48,274 bases of DNA from an uncultured Lentisphaerota bacterium (lineage in GTDB: Bacteria; Verrucomicrobiota; Kiritimatiellia; RFP12; UBA1067): contig ONRL01000008.1 in the NCBI GenBank assembly GCA_900320225.1, positions 1 through 48,274 on the forward strand, given 5' to 3'. A program made the translations under genes and the position numbers. Below, in pieces: positions 28,906-45,117 of the stretch. Below the pieces are notes generated by a model. The model had not been told where the DNA came from, ran no database searches, and saw nothing but the letters and a program-made list of their open reading frames with translations. Every line of letters begins with the position of its first letter. Positions within the stretch are counted from its first letter, which is position 1.

Positions 28906-28978
28906 TTTGCCGCAAAGAACGCAAAGTGCGCAAAGCAATGTTATGATCTTTGCGTTCTCTGCGTTCTTTGCGGCGAAA
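28906..28978. repeat. Inverted repeat element, CTTTGCGGC family
   Basis: The left arm (28906-28935) and the right arm (28948-28978) are near-complete complements around a 12-base AT-rich loop; the core is GCCGCAAAGAACGCA. It could act as a terminator for the lipoprotein gene. Diverged AT-richer relatives are at 38666 and 47343. Confidence 0.75.
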
Positions 28979-29008: not shown

Positions 29009-32000
29009 ATGATGAAAAAGGTGATGATGTTGATTGTGGCCGTACTCACCGGCAGCGTGTTCGCGGGGCCGGACGTGATGGCGATGTGGGGCGCGGACGA
29101 CGCGCGCGCGAAGAAGGTGCTGGCGGCGCTCGCCGACGAAGGCGAGTGCTACGTGATCGCGTCGGCGACGAATGCGGCGTCGTGCCGCGCGACGCTCGCG
29201 CGCTTGAAAAGCCGCTGCGTGGTCGTGTGCGCGGACGGCGGCGCGATGCTGCGCGAGATCCTCGCCACGCCCGAGGGCGCGAAGCTCGTCGCGAAGAAGG
29301 TGAGCAAGGTCGTCAGCACGACGATGCTCCCCGAGCTGCGCGTGCCGGTGGAGGTGGTGGAGGGCGGCCCCGCGTTTGCCGCTTTCGCGGCGGTGCGCCC
29401 GCGGCGCGTGGGACGCTTCCCCGCCTCGGTGATCGATTCGGTGCTTGACGAGCTCGCGGCGCGCACGCCGCGGCGTCTGCGTCCCGACGTGATCGAGAAC
29501 GCGCGTACGCGTTGCGAGAAGACCGCGACGGGCGTGCGCCTCGCGCGCGACGGGAAGACGATCTGGAACTTCGAGATCGACAATCCGGAGGGGCGTCCGT
29601 TCATCCACCCGATGTACCTGCCGTCCGGCGCGCCGCTGACGGACATCCGCCCGAAAGACCACGTGTGGCACCTCGGCTGCTGGTTCTCGTGGAAGTTCAT
29701 CAACGGCGTCAACTACTGGGAGCCGGCGGATGCGAAGCGCACGGGATGCGAGCCGGAAGGGCGCACGCGCGTGGTGAAGAAGTCCGTCGCCTGCGACGGC
29801 GCGGCCTGCACGGTGGAACTTACGCTCGACTACGGTCCGCGCGCTGGGAAAGAAGCGGTGCTGGACGAGATGCGCACGGTCGTGTTCGATCCGCCCGACC
29901 CGAAGGGCGGCTACACCGTGACGTTCCGCCACACGTTCACCGCGCGCACGGACGTGACGCTCGACCGCACGCCGCCGCACGGCTCCACCGAGAAGGGCAA
30001 GTGGGGCGGCGGCTACGCGGGCTTCACGATGCGCCTCGATCCCGCTGCCGCGAAGGCATTCGGCGTGCGCGGATTTGCGGGCGGCACCACGCCCGCCGCC
30101 GTGACCGGCGTGGAGCGCACGTGGCTCGACTTCGTGAATCCCGCGAACGGCGAAGGCGTCACGCTCACACAGCTCGCCGCGCCCGACACTGCGCGCTTCT
30201 ACTCGTGGCCCGACCAGCGGATGATCAATCCCTCGCCCGTCTACGCCGGCCCGATTACCCTCAAGAAGGGCGAGACGCTTACGCTCGCCTATCGCCTCGC
30301 CGTGCATGCGAACCGCGCGGTCGTGAAAAACGGCTTCGCGGCGCGTCCCGTGGAGCCGATGAACCGCGGGCTCGTCGCGACCGTGGGCGAGAAGGGCACG
30401 TACGTCTCGTGGCGTCTCCTCGACACGGACGCCCCCGACGCCGCGTTCAACCTCTGGCGCAAGGTCGGCGACAAGGTGGAGAAAGTGAACACCGCGCCGA
30501 TCCGCCAGACGACCGATTTCCTCGTCGAGGGCTGCGCGGACGCGGCCGCCTGCTATTCGCTTGACCGCGCGGCCTGGACGCCCGTGCGCATCCCGCACCG
30601 TCCGGGCCAGGCCCCGTACATCTCGATCCCGCTCGCGCAGACGAACGAGACCGTGGCAGCGGTGGGCGTGGGCGACCTCGACGGCGACGGCGCGTACGAC
30701 TACGTGATCAAGACGCCGCGCGGCGGCACCGACCCGTGGGACCTTGTGTGGAGGCCCGCGCCGGACACCTACAAGATGGAGGCCTATTCCTCCACGGGCA
30801 AGTTCCTCTGGCGCAAGGACCAGGGCTGGAACATCGAGATGGGCATCTGGTACTCGCCGTTCCTCGTGGCGGACCTCGACGGTGACGGAAAGGCGGAGGT
30901 GATCACGAAGACCGCGCCGCTTTCGCCCGACTACCGCGACGCGACCGGGCGCGTGCAGAGCGGCCCCGAATACCTCTCCGTGATCGACGGCCTCACGGGC
31001 GAGGAGCGCGCGAAGACGGACTGGATCCCGCGCGACCCGCCCGATCCCGTGGGGGCCTACAACCACTACAACTCGCGCAACCAGCTCGCGCTCGCCTACC
31101 TCGACGGACGCACCCCGTGCATCATCGTGGAGCGCGGCACGTACAACCACATGGTGGTGGAGGCCTACCGCTTCGTGCAGAACCGCCTCGAGCGCCTCTG
31201 GCGCTTCGACAACACGTTCATGCCGCGCCGCTTCAGGGGACAGGGCGACCACGCCTGCCTCTGCGAGGACGTGGATGGCGACGGCTGCGACGAGGTGCTG
31301 ATCGGCTCGCTCACGCTCGACCAGGACGGCACGGTTCTCTGGTGCAACGGGCGCGGACACTCCGACGCGCACTACTACGGCGACATCGACCCCAACCGCC
31401 CCGGCATGGAGCTCGCGTTCGTGTACGAAACCCCGCAGCGCAACGGCGGCGGACTGTTCATGGCCGATCCCGTCACCGGCGAGGAAATCTGGAAACTCCC
31501 CGTGCCGACACACCACGTGCATGGTTGCGGCATCTGTGCGGACATCGCCCCCGAGTATCCCGGTCTTGAGATCTATGGTGAGCAGGTCGGACGCGCCGCC
31601 GGACGCGACAGCAAGAACACGCACCCGCACAGCGACGACCGCTGGTTCTACACGGCGGCGGGCGAGCTGCTCTGCGCCTACACGAACTGCACGTTCAACT
31701 ACGGCTACGGCGTGCGCAACGCGTTCTGGGACGCCGACCTCCAGCGCGAGGTGTTCCGGGGCGCGCTGCGCGACCACGAGGGCGCGTCCGTCTCGCCGCG
31801 CGTGCCGTCGCCGATGATCGTGGCGGACCTCTTCGGCGACTGGCGCGAGGAGTTCATCGCCGCCGTGCCGGGCGAGCTGCGTGTCTATACGACGGACGTT
31901 CCCGCGATGGACCGGCGCGTCACACTCATGCGCGACCGCCCCTACCGCTCGCGCATCCTCATGACGCCGAGCGGCTACGAGCAGCAGCCGATCCTCACCT

Positions 32001-32302
32001 ACGTGCCAAGCGCACGCGACCCGAACCTCTCGCTCCGCCTCGCGCCGAACGCGCGCACAATCCGCCTCGACGTCACCGCGCCGCAGGACCGTCCGCTCAA
32101 GGGACGCCTTTCGGTGTCGTTCACCAACGGCTGGCGCATCGACCTCGGCGACGGTGCTGTGGACCTGCCACCGGGCGGCATCCTCAGCCGTACGTTCAAG
32201 GTGAAGCGTCCGCCGAACCCGCGCGGCCGCTACGACGCCACGCTCACACTCGAGCGCCCGGACGCCCCGCCGCTCGTCCTCCACCAGCCGTACTTCCTCT
32301 GA
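29009..32302 (+). CDS. Secreted DUF6807 (PmoA-like) - PL11 rhamnogalacturonan lyase fusion
   Basis: 1097 residues. A signal peptide (MMLIVAVLTGSVFAG) is followed by an alpha/beta segment of unknown type (residues ~20-150). Residues ~165-440 match DUF6807: FEIDNPEGRPFIHPMYLP, DHVWHLGCWFSWKFINGVNYW and the WLDFVNP strand. Residues ~447-1010 are a PL11 lyase: MNRGLVATVGEKGTYVSWRLL, VGVGDLDGDGAYDYVIK, GIWYSPFLVADLDGDGKAEV and LCEDVDGDGCDEVL, with several DxDGDG calcium sites typical of its propeller. PL11 enzymes cleave the rhamnogalacturonan I backbone of pectin. A beta-sandwich tail follows. AAGGAAAG precedes the start; a second ATG at 29012 is possible. The DUF6807 plus PL11 combination is unusual to me. 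Confidence 0.88.
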   Translation: MMKKVMMLIVAVLTGSVFAGPDVMAMWGADDARAKKVLAALADEGECYVIASATNAASCRATLARLKSRCVVVCADGGAMLREILATPEGAKLVAKKVSKVVSTTMLPELRVPVEVVEGGPAFAAFAAVRPRRVGRFPASVIDSVLDELAARTPRRLRPDVIENARTRCEKTATGVRLARDGKTIWNFEIDNPEGRPFIHPMYLPSGAPLTDIRPKDHVWHLGCWFSWKFINGVNYWEPADAKRTGCEPEGRTRVVKKSVACDGAACTVELTLDYGPRAGKEAVLDEMRTVVFDPPDPKGGYTVTFRHTFTARTDVTLDRTPPHGSTEKGKWGGGYAGFTMRLDPAAAKAFGVRGFAGGTTPAAVTGVERTWLDFVNPANGEGVTLTQLAAPDTARFYSWPDQRMINPSPVYAGPITLKKGETLTLAYRLAVHANRAVVKNGFAARPVEPMNRGLVATVGEKGTYVSWRLLDTDAPDAAFNLWRKVGDKVEKVNTAPIRQTTDFLVEGCADAAACYSLDRAAWTPVRIPHRPGQAPYISIPLAQTNETVAAVGVGDLDGDGAYDYVIKTPRGGTDPWDLVWRPAPDTYKMEAYSSTGKFLWRKDQGWNIEMGIWYSPFLVADLDGDGKAEVITKTAPLSPDYRDATGRVQSGPEYLSVIDGLTGEERAKTDWIPRDPPDPVGAYNHYNSRNQLALAYLDGRTPCIIVERGTYNHMVVEAYRFVQNRLERLWRFDNTFMPRRFRGQGDHACLCEDVDGDGCDEVLIGSLTLDQDGTVLWCNGRGHSDAHYYGDIDPNRPGMELAFVYETPQRNGGGLFMADPVTGEEIWKLPVPTHHVHGCGICADIAPEYPGLEIYGEQVGRAAGRDSKNTHPHSDDRWFYTAAGELLCAYTNCTFNYGYGVRNAFWDADLQREVFRGALRDHEGASVSPRVPSPMIVADLFGDWREEFIAAVPGELRVYTTDVPAMDRRVTLMRDRPYRSRILMTPSGYEQQPILTYVPSARDPNLSLRLAPNARTIRLDVTAPQDRPLKGRLSVSFTNGWRIDLGDGAVDLPPGGILSRTFKVKRPPNPRGRYDATLTLERPDAPPLVLHQPYFL

Positions 32303-32346: not shown

Positions 32347-32382
32347 AACAGTATCGATTTCAACCACAAAAAAGGAATGACA

Positions 32383-33639
32383 ATGAACAGAAGAGATTTC
32401 TTCAAGTCCGCCGCCGCGTTCGCGGCCGCCGCCGGCGTGGTCGGCACGGCGAAAAAGGCCGAGGCGCATGCCGCGAAGCCGAAGGCCGGCAACAACCCGA
32501 TCTGGCTGATGACGTCGGCCTTTCCCGCCGACGACTTCGACGGCGTCGTGAAGCGCGCGCTCGCCGTCGGCGCGCAGGGCCTTGAGCTCTGCGTGTTCCG
32601 CCGCGACTCCGACCGCACGGACCACGTGGCCACGCACCTCGACTACAAGAACTTCACGCCCGCAAAGGCGAAGTACGTGATCGACACGTGCAACGCGAAG
32701 GGCCTGCGCGTTTCGGTGGGCGCCTACGACAACCTCATCGGCGGCGACTTCCAGGAGACCAACCAGAACCACATCCTGAACCTCATCCGCATCGCGGCGA
32801 TGCTCGGCGGCGACGCGAACGATGTCGTCTGCGGCACGTTCGTAGGCTATGACCAGAAGCTCGGCGCCGAGGACGGCGGCTTCGAGAAGAACCTCGAGAA
32901 GTTCAAGAAGGTGTTCACGCCCATCCTCAAATACGCGAAGGACCTCGGCGTGACGGTGTGCGTCGAGAACTGTCCGATGGAAGGGTGGGTGCCGGCCTCG
33001 TCGCCCGTGTGCTACTGCAATCTCCCCGGCTGCCTCGCCGCGCGCAAGCTCATGTACGCGATCCTCGACGACAGCTCGAACCTCCAGGAGACGTACGACC
33101 CCTCGCACGACATCTGGCAGCACATCGACCCGTCGGACGTGATCAACGCCATGGACTTCAAGAAGCTCCGCCGCATCCACATCAAGGGCACGCGCAACTT
33201 CCCGAACGACGCAGAGGCCGTCAACTGGGGCCGCCTCTTCCCGCGCCAGCGCGTGAGCGACGCCCTCGCCGCGAAGGCCGGTCTCCCCGCGCTCCCGCCC
33301 GATTCGCAGGGTGGCAACTGGGACCGCATGAACTACGAGCCGCGCCTCCCCGGCTTCGGCGGCAGCGACTCGTGCGACTGGACGAAGTTCCTCGAGACCC
33401 TCATGGCGAAGGGCTACAAGTATCCGTTCGTGATCGAGAACGAGGGCTGCAACTCGTCCCACACGGGCAACATGGGCGCGACGATGCAGGGTTTCCGCGC
33501 GACGATCCTCAACACGGCGCCGGTCGTGTGGCCGCTCGGCGAGAACGGCTACGCCTTCGACGCGTCCGCGCTCAAGCCGATGACCGCGTCGCGCGTGGCG
33601 GACCTGCCCGTCGTGACGATGAAGGACCTGGGTGCCTGA
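32383..33639 (+). CDS. Tat-exported sugar isomerase/epimerase-like TIM-barrel protein
   Basis: 418 residues. The ATG at 32383 is 6 bases after AAAGGA; an ATG at 32377 would overlap that site. A twin-arginine signal peptide is clear: MNRRDFFKSAAAFAAAAGVVG. The mature part is an AP-endonuclease-2/xylose-isomerase-like barrel (LAVGAQGLELCVF, GLRVSVGAYDN, TVCVENCPMEGW, ILDDSSNLQETYDPSHDIWQ, RRIHIKGTRNF, YPFVIENEGC), with the Glu, Asp, His and Glu positions where metal ligands usually sit. The substrate is unknown. The next gene starts inside its last codons. Confidence 0.87.
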   Translation: MNRRDFFKSAAAFAAAAGVVGTAKKAEAHAAKPKAGNNPIWLMTSAFPADDFDGVVKRALAVGAQGLELCVFRRDSDRTDHVATHLDYKNFTPAKAKYVIDTCNAKGLRVSVGAYDNLIGGDFQETNQNHILNLIRIAAMLGGDANDVVCGTFVGYDQKLGAEDGGFEKNLEKFKKVFTPILKYAKDLGVTVCVENCPMEGWVPASSPVCYCNLPGCLAARKLMYAILDDSSNLQETYDPSHDIWQHIDPSDVINAMDFKKLRRIHIKGTRNFPNDAEAVNWGRLFPRQRVSDALAAKAGLPALPPDSQGGNWDRMNYEPRLPGFGGSDSCDWTKFLETLMAKGYKYPFVIENEGCNSSHTGNMGATMQGFRATILNTAPVVWPLGENGYAFDASALKPMTASRVADLPVVTMKDLGA

Positions 33640-42885: not shown

Positions 42886-42943
42886 GAATCCCCGCAGGAA
42901 CGGACGGCGGATTTTGAAAAACAGCGAAAGGAAAACGGAATGA
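42884..42943 (+). CDS. Possible leaderless 19-residue upstream ORF
   Basis: A GTG at the presumed transcription start opens a frame encoding MNPRRNGRRILKNSERKTE, whose stop overlaps the ATG of the next gene (ATGA). This layout fits a translationally coupled leader peptide. Chance is a real alternative in such GC-rich DNA, and the downstream gene has its own AAAGGAAAA site. Confidence 0.2.
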   Translation: MNPRRNGRRILKNSERKTE

Positions 42944-45117
42944 GATTACGGTGCGGAATGATTGCCGTCGTGTGCGCGTGCGCAGCGATGGCGAACGGCG
43001 ACGTGGTGCTGTTCGACGCCGCGACGGCAAAACGGTCCGCCGTCCACGCACAGGACGGCGCGTCGTTCAAACTGGAGAACGGCCTCTTGACGGTGACGAC
43101 GGCTCCCTCGGGCGGCTATCCGGGTGTGTGCGTGTCCGGCAACTGGAACCTCTCGGGCTGCCGCCGCGTGGAGGTGGAGTTTGTGAACGGCGGCATCTAC
43201 GGACTCTACACCCTGCGTCTCCTGAACGCCGGCGGCGTGCCCGCCGGCAAGGGCAGCAAGATCTTCAAGTTGCCCATCCGCGGCGAGAAACACGCCGTGA
43301 TCGGCGCCGATTTCCCGCCGGACCTGCCGGAGCTCGACGCGATCGTGTCCCAGCTCAGCCCCCTGCGCGTGTGGGCCATCCCGTATCTCGTCTGGGCACC
43401 TCATCCGAAGCCGGGTGAAAGTCCCAACAGACGTGCGCCGCCTGGCGGCGTGGGCACGCTCGACCGCCGCGCCGTACGGCAGGTGGCCGTCTACATCAAC
43501 AAGCCCCAGCTCCCGCACGTCTGGAGCGTGCGACGCATCGTGGCAAAGCTCGGATCCGACGCGCCGTCCGCGCGTCCCGTGCCTGCCTGGGCGAAGATGA
43601 CGACAGACCAGTTCTTCCCGTTCATCGACGAGTACGGACAGTTCAAGCACCGCGAGTGGCCCGACAAGGTGCATGCCGATGCCGACCTTGCACGCCAGCG
43701 CGCGAAGGAGGAAGCCGACCTCGCCGATCATCCCGGCCCCGTCGGCTGGGACAAGTGGGGCGGCTGGGCTGATGGTCCCCAGTTGCCGCCGACGGGCGGT
43801 TTCTCGACGACCAAGTGGAACGGCAAATGGTGGATCGTCGATCCCGACGGACACCTTTGGTGGAGTCACGGTCCGGTGCGCGTGACGCCCAGTTGCGCCA
43901 CCACCCCGCTCGACAACCATGAACGCTGGTTCGCTCGCCTTCCGGCGAAGGGGTCCCCCGAGGCCGAGTTCTATTCCACGCGCGACATGCTCCTGTGGCC
44001 CTACTACGGCAAACGCGGTCTCAAGAGCGTGTACGACTTCTCCGCGCAGAACATCGCACGCAAGTACGGCAAGGGGTGGTACGACACCTGGGCGGCGCTT
44101 GCACACCGCCGCCTCCGCAGCTGGGGCTGCAACACGATCGCCAATTCGTCCGACTTGCAGATTTGCCTCATGGACCGCACCCCCTACACCGACCGCTACG
44201 AAATCCACTCGCGGCCCATTGCCGGACACAAGGGCGGCTGGTGGGAGTTCTGCGACCCGTTCGACCCGTCTTTCCGTGCGGAGGCGCGACAGAAAACGGT
44301 GGACTACCGCAAGCAGTTCGAGGATCCGTGGTGCTTCGGGTTTTTCGTGGACAACGAACACCATTGGGGAACGGCCAACACCTTGGCGCTCTCCACGCTG
44401 AAGTCGCCCGCCGACCAGCCATGCAAACGCGTGTTCCGCGACCGGATGAAGACGAAGTACGTCGAAATCGCGAAGCTGAACACGAAGTGGCATACGTCCT
44501 ATTCGAATTGGGATGATTTCCTGGCCGTCACGAAGACGCCGGATCCCAAAGCCGCGAAGGAGGATCTCGAGGCGTTCACCGCTGAAATCGCCGAAGAGTA
44601 TTACCGTGTCATCCGCGAGGAACTCAAGCGCGCGGCGCCTGGCAAACTCTACCTCGGCTGTCGATGGGCCGGCGGCGCGCCGCTCTTCACCGTGAAAGCG
44701 GCCGCCAAGTACTGCGACGTGCTGAGTTACAACATCTACCGGCGGCACTTGCGCGAGTTCAAGCTTCCCGACGGGATCGACATGCCGATCCTCGTGGGCG
44801 AATTCCATTTCGGCGCCTTGGACCGCGGACCGTTCTGCCCCGGACTGATCCTGCTCCAAGACCAGGAAGAGCGTGGCCGGACATACGTGGACTACGTCCG
44901 CTCCGCGCTTGAACATCCGCAGTTCGTTGGCGTACACTGGCACCAGTTCTCAGACCAGGCCACCTCGGGACGTTTCGACGGAGAGAACATGCAGGTGGGA
45001 TGGACGGACGTGTGCGACACGCCCTACTGGGAAACGATCCGCGCGTTGCGCGAAATCGGCTACAACCTCTATCCCGTCCGCGCCGCCCGCGTCATTCCGT
45101 CACGCGGTTGCGATTGA
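42940..45117 (+). CDS. Secreted glycoside hydrolase, GH50-like (putative beta-agarase/galactosidase)
   Basis: 725 residues with a signal peptide (MIAVVCACAAMANG). Residues ~20-200 look like a carbohydrate-binding beta-sandwich, which contains a Pro/Gly/Arg-rich insert near residue 160. The GH50-type catalytic part follows: PFIDEYGQFKHREWPDKVH, PVGWDKWGGWADGPQL, WWIVDPDGHLWWSHG, then the acid/base region CFGFFVDNEHHWG and the nucleophile region ILVGEFHFGALDRG near residue 625. This arrangement belongs to clan GH-A; GH50 enzymes known to me are beta-agarases, but related galactosidases are possible. It overlaps the 3' end of the convergent MFS gene by 26 bases. Confidence 0.72.
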   Translation: MRLRCGMIAVVCACAAMANGDVVLFDAATAKRSAVHAQDGASFKLENGLLTVTTAPSGGYPGVCVSGNWNLSGCRRVEVEFVNGGIYGLYTLRLLNAGGVPAGKGSKIFKLPIRGEKHAVIGADFPPDLPELDAIVSQLSPLRVWAIPYLVWAPHPKPGESPNRRAPPGGVGTLDRRAVRQVAVYINKPQLPHVWSVRRIVAKLGSDAPSARPVPAWAKMTTDQFFPFIDEYGQFKHREWPDKVHADADLARQRAKEEADLADHPGPVGWDKWGGWADGPQLPPTGGFSTTKWNGKWWIVDPDGHLWWSHGPVRVTPSCATTPLDNHERWFARLPAKGSPEAEFYSTRDMLLWPYYGKRGLKSVYDFSAQNIARKYGKGWYDTWAALAHRRLRSWGCNTIANSSDLQICLMDRTPYTDRYEIHSRPIAGHKGGWWEFCDPFDPSFRAEARQKTVDYRKQFEDPWCFGFFVDNEHHWGTANTLALSTLKSPADQPCKRVFRDRMKTKYVEIAKLNTKWHTSYSNWDDFLAVTKTPDPKAAKEDLEAFTAEIAEEYYRVIREELKRAAPGKLYLGCRWAGGAPLFTVKAAAKYCDVLSYNIYRRHLREFKLPDGIDMPILVGEFHFGALDRGPFCPGLILLQDQEERGRTYVDYVRSALEHPQFVGVHWHQFSDQATSGRFDGENMQVGWTDVCDTPYWETIRALREIGYNLYPVRAARVIPSRGCD

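Follow-up and report, generated by a model that had tools for sequence, protein, structure and literature searches.

An uncultured Lentisphaerota bacterium encodes a protein in which two known families, DUF6807 and polysaccharide lyase family 11 (PL11), are joined in a new architecture. The gene lies at positions 29009–32302 on the forward strand of the 48,274-nucleotide stretch analysed here (the window; contig ONRL01000008.1, assembly GCA_900320225.1), and its open reading frame (ORF) is uninterrupted and specifies a 1,097-residue product. The fusion is real and has been inherited and kept under selection; ten genomes of one family have it, so it is not an assembly chimera. Among the fused proteins, constraint on DUF6807 is as strong as that on the lyase-type propeller. 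We regard it as an evenly balanced possibility that this Kiritimatiellae-type bacterium secretes the protein as a plant-cell-wall enzyme of several modules, aimed most likely at rhamnogalacturonan-type pectin, with a decayed nucleoside hydrolase (NH)-like domain at its front and a DUF6807 domain that processes sugars.

A preliminary description of the window, made by reading the sequence, had placed DUF6807 N-terminal to PL11 in a single protein, and Pfam agrees with its domain calls and borders (Table 1). DUF6807, expected within residues 165–440, was found at 176–436, and all domains score above their cut-offs (DUF6807, 144.6 bits against 27; RGI_lyase, 45.1 against 27.8; RGL11_C, 285.2 against 27), with YesW (2z8r) aligning by phmmer to residues 444–998 (E 8e-79). 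The protein is apparently exported, as judged from a signal identified by eye, and the sequence GAAGGAAAG upstream of the ORF resembles, also by eye, a ribosome-binding site.

The survey for further fusions envisaged in that description took the form of a whole-protein search of 345 genomes of the class (99 of which match some part) and of a second genome collection, and the arrangement was found in ten genomes of one family (the window, L064–L069, L072, L041 and L042; L and G numbers are our labels for loci and genomes). Among the close relatives L065 is of sheep and L067 of goat rumen origin. The reading frame of the fused gene is broken in L069 (G548) and L072 (G487), that of L042 (G282) ends at an apparent contig end, and three further genomes have contig-end fragments only (L070, L071 and L220). 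No fused DUF6807 was found at the 52 other PL11 loci examined (L073–L124), one of which (L075) has a separate DUF6807 in its flank. In the source genome the fused copy is the only DUF6807 match at E ≤ 0.001, and RGL11_C has two matches, the fused gene included; the other (L003; G000 C158) lies in a 729-residue frame and matches the C-terminal portion of the profile alone. The titles and abstract openings listed from the open-access literature contained no report of a DUF6807–PL11 fusion, and searches of that literature found neither 'rhamnogalacturonan lyase' together with 'nucleoside hydrolase' nor any two of PmoA, ThuA, DUF1080 and DUF1961 together.

The ratios of nonsynonymous to synonymous substitution rates (dN/dS, NG86) between the window and L069 are 0.125 for DUF6807, 0.134 for the propeller, 0.193 for the RGI_lyase domain and 0.179 for the C-terminal tail; with the more distant L064 as the comparison, DUF6807 has 0.354 and the propeller 0.403. 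In 52 non-fused DUF6807 domains, from which the columns were chosen with the fused rows excluded, 36 columns reach 90% conservation or more; the window DUF6807 keeps 34 of these and departs at two, where it has R196 in place of K and M202 in place of L. D217, H218, H221, W237 and R342 are present in all 52 non-fused domains, and R289 and Y428 in 51; a separate set of 12 invariant columns includes the window by construction and is no test of its membership.

The alpha/beta segment ahead of DUF6807, left unassigned in the preliminary description, exists, and through its relatives it can be identified as a degraded NH-like domain. In eight fused relatives (L064–L068, L072, L041 and L042) the N-terminal ~340 residues are an NH-like domain according to a profile of our own, and PF01156 scores above its cut-off of 34.2 bits in all three proteins tested (L064, 41.3; L041, 50.0; L044, 40.9). 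The motifs DTDM..D[YF]DDVGA and WDE are kept in nine proteins (the eight relatives and L044), and EYN in eight of these nine, with L068 having TYN (Thr for Glu). In the window and in L069, which is 88% identical, the segment is ~190 residues shorter than in the relatives and the catalytic Asp motif is lost; the calcium motif DTD...D.DD of the relatives is absent from the window protein, where the region reads PDVMAMWGADDARA. A Pfam search of the window protein gives no PF01156 match up to an E value of 1; three collinear pieces of the segment match the relatives' NH profile at E 6.5e-4, the best of 2000 shuffled controls reaching E 0.04. The dN/dS of the remnant (window against L069) is 0.37, reflecting weaker constraint than on the other domains. 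Because of this dN/dS contrast, the shortening and the motif loss, the front segment appears to be an NH-like domain that is decaying while DUF6807 is strictly kept.

We propose that the ancestral protein would have had three modules, an NH-like hydrolase, DUF6807 and a calcium-binding propeller of the divergent PL11 type, and that in the window lineage the first would have decayed, with DUF6807 and the propeller remaining under strong selection. The propeller would cleave or hold a uronate-containing backbone, and DUF6807, through its Asp-His-x-x-His, Arg, Arg and Tyr set, would process ends or side-chain sugars released nearby. Modules are missing in some relatives, and the order of gain and loss given here is a putative one. 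The fusion supports a sugar-processing role for DUF6807, and pectin is the likeliest setting for the fused clade.

A pectin context is present at some of the fused loci and absent at others. L068 is flanked on one side by a glycoside hydrolase family 2 (GH2) gene with an arabinofuranose-binding domain and on the other by GH97 and alpha-L-rhamnosidase genes, L071 (97% identical over its part) has a rhamnosidase gene two genes downstream, and the fused gene of L064 is followed by genes for the solute-binding protein and permease of a sugar ATP-binding cassette transporter. Enzymes of GH88 and GH105 act on unsaturated uronyl ends, as made by PL11 lyases. Among DUF6807 genes outside fusions, that of G533 adjoins a GH88/GH105-type gene and that of G550 is in the same co-directional run as one, with two genes between; PDB matches of the G550 GH88/GH105-type protein include the GH105 protein 3qwt, YteR (1nc5) and a family 88 enzyme. 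We note that these DUF6807 and GH88/GH105 runs (L155:2416-6670 and L156:825-5169) hold further genes without Pfam matches, of which those of 786 and 802 residues are homologous, and no mutual match was found between those of 627 and 641 residues; the 786- and 627-residue products of the G550 run gave no Pfam match and no convincing PDB match.

A number of observations weigh against a pectin-directed enzyme of this kind, and they come from the propeller, from the loci and partners of DUF6807, and from the model of its fold. First, the propeller belongs to a divergent branch. We compared 26 distinct divergent sequences, a set defined by an identity of 40% or more with the window sequence, with 49 distinct canonical ones, and residue roles were placed on the window through YesW residue numbers together with the phmmer alignment to 2z8r. 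The calcium ligands H748, H784, D786 and E807 and the stacking Tyr (Y990) are kept, and by alignment the canonical Arg is replaced by C840 and the canonical Lys by V932 or P933. Of the canonical sequences 96% have this Arg and 92% this Lys, and each is found in fewer than 20% of the divergent ones, among which L055–L057 still show the Arg; all 26 divergent sequences have E610 for a canonical Arg and W614 for a canonical His, and at least 92% have new histidines at 836 and 838. In YesW-based models the Arg and Lys hold the substrate carboxylate, according to the paper from which the residue roles are taken (PMC8787155). Because these carboxylate-binding residues are missing, the rhamnogalacturonan specificity of the PL11 part is not secure; the propeller is PL11-related, with the rhamnogalacturonan I (RG-I) lyase reaction not assured. 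What had been described as a complete PL11 lyase thus has both Pfam domains and an active site that differs from the canonical one.

Secondly, the association of DUF6807 with PL11 is not uniform. L044 (G552) has the NH and PL11 parts without DUF6807, and no RGL11_C was found in the genomes with the closest free-standing DUF6807 domains, G482, G550 and G533 (90%, 76% and 84% complete); the DUF6807 domains of the first two are nested in the fused clade. At least 35 genomes have both DUF6807 and PL11 among the matches listed; the two are fused in two of these (G000 and G282) and lie unfused within ~5 kb in two (G214 and G240), for which a rough estimate of chance co-location, with listed rows compared by eye, is 0.3 genomes. 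A general genomic linkage of DUF6807 and PL11 was considered and is weak, with few close unfused pairs among the matches listed. No clear pectin neighbour is seen at the window, where the TIM-barrel gene is followed by a threonine dehydratase gene, nor at L066 (tRNA synthetase), L069 (SMC-like, by eye), L072 (VIT/DUF2135) or L065 (O-antigen-ligase-like, with a weak GH42 match).

Thirdly, DUF6807 has varied partners and neighbours. In a sample of ten DUF6807 proteins from the phylum, selected because their frames are long (L137, L140, L141 and L143 lie outside it), the partner is ThuA in three (L127, L128 and L130), a GH2 beta-galactosidase in one (L134), HEAT repeats in two (L135 and L136), DUF6288 with HEAT in one (L144), cytochrome c in one (L139) and a candidate DNA-binding domain in one (L142), and one has no named partner (L138). 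ThuA–DUF6807 and DUF6807–ThuA fusions both occur (L127, L128, L130, L131 and relatives), several of them adjoining a Gfo/Idh/MocA gene. Genes of the Gfo/Idh/MocA family make up 17 of the 31 upstream and 8 of the 32 downstream adjacent co-directional genes (25 of 63), compared with a background of very roughly 1% of genes, a figure based on 449 domains in ~49.5 Mb of 12 genomes and an assumed number of genes per Mb. The neighbour loci were chosen as window-like or long-framed, with rough gene calling of our own and a gap limit of 250 bp, and near-identical loci are counted separately. The upstream set comprises 30 of the 31 listed genes (the window's upstream gene being omitted) and the known Gfo/Idh/MocA gene of L125, added by hand, and the downstream set 32 of 33 genes (the fused relative L126 being omitted); at L176 a 106-residue ORF was passed over and the next gene, which is Gfo/Idh/MocA-like, was taken. 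TIM barrels of the AP_endonuc_2 family account for 2 of the 31 upstream and 5 of the 32 downstream neighbours, the window's own gene included.

Because of these varied partners and the frequent Gfo/Idh/MocA neighbours, DUF6807 looks like a general sugar-metabolism module rather than a rhamnogalacturonan specialist. The proposal that the fusion shows DUF6807 to act on or bind rhamnogalacturonan therefore holds in part, being consistent with the constraint on the fused domains and with some pectin neighbours, and as a claim for the whole family it is not supported. The same associations raise a reading that we hold to be possible rather than probable, in which DUF6807 acts in an oxidative sugar pathway on keto- or enol-sugars from Gfo/Idh/MocA enzymes, and the PL11 link is one local use. 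The excess of Gfo/Idh/MocA neighbours, the ThuA fusions in both orders, the AP_endonuc_2 barrels and the free-standing DUF6807 gene of G482, which abuts or overlaps a Gfo/Idh/MocA gene, all count in its favour. However, two queries found no Gfo/Idh/MocA gene at L064–L072 or in the window, of the three free-standing DUF6807 genes nearest to that of the window, two are in the runs with GH88/GH105, the window clade and the ThuA clade are distinct, and the neighbour counts take in closely related loci as separate.

This distinction between clades is seen in a tree built from 62 DUF6807 domains (L140, L136 and L190 were left out), where all ten fused rows group in a single clade (99/95) within which two free-standing rows are nested, from G482 (80% identity) and G550 (57%). 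A GH2 fusion and the free-standing domain of G533 (52% identity) form the neighbouring branches, and 18 of the 19 rows of the sister clade match a ThuA query. The fused or free label requires three changes on this tree; the nested free-standing domains probably represent loss of the fusion, although independent fusions may be the explanation instead.

An AlphaFold2 model built from seven sequences has a mean predicted local distance difference test (pLDDT) score of 56.5 overall. The DUF6807 part is at ~70 with some stretches below 50, and is thus a moderate model, and the NH remnant is below 50, so that its fold was not read from the model; a three-domain model of L064 (mean pLDDT 38.8) was not used. 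Foldseek and VIA-align both identify the DUF6807 model as a predicted galactose-mutarotase-like supersandwich. The best VIA-align match (Z 14.7) is part of a beta-galactosidase, the LacZ C-terminal domain being among the best matches, the mutarotase GalM (4bze) is matched at Z 14.3 (root-mean-square deviation 3.9, 224 residues aligned), parts of HepC, GH36 and GH97 enzymes are at Z 12.7–13.8, and 427 of 998 chains reach Z 8 or more. The Glu/His pair with which GalM catalyses its reaction was not located in the model. The match indicates a shared fold and not a function. No sequence relatives of DUF6807 were found in the PDB or among viral contigs.

Mutarotase-like domains in LacZ, GH36 and GH97 enzymes have a positioning or spacer role, and DUF6807 could similarly be without catalysis and serve to bind carbohydrate or as a spacer, positioning the propeller. 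We consider this unlikely. The best structural matches do include such parts, and L048, a divergent PL11 protein of the same family, has CBM_4_9 at the corresponding N-terminal place; but the Asp, His, His, Arg, Arg and Tyr residues are nearly invariant across fused and non-fused DUF6807 domains, and frames of ~300 residues with DUF6807 are common, something that a spacer role alone would leave unexplained. A chance join or assembly chimera without functional meaning is very improbable, for the decayed NH domain, the relative lacking DUF6807 and the nested free-standing domains indicate only that the join is not fixed, whereas the architecture recurs in ten genomes with both remaining modules under strong purifying selection.

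The most surprising finding of the analysis is the NH module fused to wall-degrading enzymes, where it may cut glycans or nucleosides. With the L064 NH domain as query, matches were found in 110 of 332 genomes of the class, and partners were recorded for samples of 10 and 9 proteins chosen for long frames, which show occurrence and not frequency (L211 lies outside the sample, and L230 was dropped for length). In the first ten the partners are GH106 (three), GH43 (one), GH28 with GH43 (one), a CE15-type glucuronyl esterase (one), a GDSL esterase (one), an alpha/beta hydrolase (one, in the source genome) and a ureide/sugar permease (two). In the next nine, seven of which are outside the family, they are sulfatase (three), LamG/Ig (one), F5/8C (one) and 5'-nucleotidase (one); of the remaining three, two lack a partner family and one matches no family. 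The fusions to GH106, GH43, GH28, CE15, esterases and sulfatases are at L212–L219, L222, L223 and L225, the NH match of L219 being slightly below the Pfam cut-off. All 15 NH domains of an alignment that does not include L068 keep the residues Asp, Glu, Asn and Trp-Asp. In a tree of 20 NH domains the PL11-fused ones form one clade and the GH106-fused ones another. The best solved relative of the NH profile is RihA (E 7e-4), and one NH domain alone gave no match in the PDB. A contrast to the wall-enzyme fusions is the NH-like domain with a 5'-nucleotidase at L229:2836-5961, plausibly a nucleotide-salvage protein because of that partner. We speculate, as a possibility rather than a probability, that the NH domains are uncharacterised secreted calcium-dependent glycan hydrolases (e.g. 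furanosidases on pentose side chains) that have been repeatedly recruited into wall-degrading fusions, with DUF6807 as a second sugar-processing enzyme of the same machine.

To our knowledge no function is assigned to DUF6807 in Pfam, and in the open-access literature we found it named only as the highest DUF number. A role in sugar processing is indicated by the fusion, by the fold predicted to be mutarotase-like and by the neighbouring GH88/GH105 and Gfo/Idh/MocA genes, and the conserved residues named here are targets for mutation. The relatives of the window protein reveal an NH-like domain joined to many wall-degrading enzymes, and the activity of the divergent PL11 branch is not to be inferred from YesW. 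In a soil clone, a DUF6807 gene may share an operon with the genes of two novel beta-galactosidases (PMC5342196). The family is called PmoA in some annotation, and another study took PF14100 as a marker for the methane monooxygenase subunit PmoA (PMC10291797). A methane-oxidation role was considered and set aside as a matter of name only, as nothing here points to methane; DUF6807 as seen here looks sugar-related.

Table 1. Features of the fused protein and the gene downstream of it, in window coordinates.
Feature	Position	Strand	Residues	Details
Secretion signal	29009..29065	+	1-19	By eye; MMKKVMMLIVAVLTGSVFA, then GP
Putative NH-like domain remnant	29066..29503	+	20-165	Homology via relatives' profile
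DUF6807 (PF14100)	29534..30316	+	176-436	Pfam E 5.9e-42
PL11 N-terminal beta-sheet domain (RGI_lyase, PF18370)	30347..30532	+	447-508	Pfam E 1.3e-11
PL11-type beta-propeller (RGL11_C, PF21348)	30659..32002	+	551-998	Pfam E 1.3e-84; divergent branch
C-terminal tail, ~97 residues	32009..32299	+		Alignable in L064, L066, L068, L069 and L044; no Pfam match
Xylose-isomerase-like TIM barrel (AP_endonuc_2)	32377..33639	+		Pfam E 1.9e-14; Tat-like signal

The downstream TIM-barrel gene is perhaps co-transcribed with the fused gene, from which a gap of 74 bp separates it, and an AP_endonuc_2 TIM-barrel gene is the downstream neighbour in L070 and L071 too; the twin-arginine translocation (Tat) model score of the window product is slightly below its cut-off. 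Immediately upstream of the fused gene there is an inverted repeat at 28910–28973, and a 25-base pattern from it has 13 copies in the genome with at most two mismatches, two of them here, compared with none for a reversed control. Elsewhere in the window, a 725-residue ORF at 42940–45117 has a weak GH42 match (E 1.3e-5).

Comparison with known systems places each module beside a described family. The DUF6807 model resembles galactose mutarotase-like proteins (GalM, YeaD and the LacZ C-terminal domain) in fold, with Z 12.7–14.7 over 199–246 residues among the 50 matches listed, but these share only 6–14% identity with it. Other members of the DUF6807 (PF14100) family have the same conserved residues, and the window differs from them in that its DUF6807 is fused at the N-terminal side of a PL11-type domain. 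RihA (3g5i), an inosine-uridine nucleoside hydrolase, is like the N-terminal domain of the relatives, where PF01156 is matched in L064, L044 and L041; in contrast to RihA-type hydrolases, however, the NH domains of the relatives are fused to wall enzymes, and that of the window is shortened and without the motif. YesW and YesX of B. subtilis (2z8r and 2zuy) share both PL11 Pfam domains with the window protein and align over nearly their whole chains, whereas the window protein, which retains their calcium ligands and stacking Tyr, does not have the canonical Arg and Lys and carries extra N-terminal modules.

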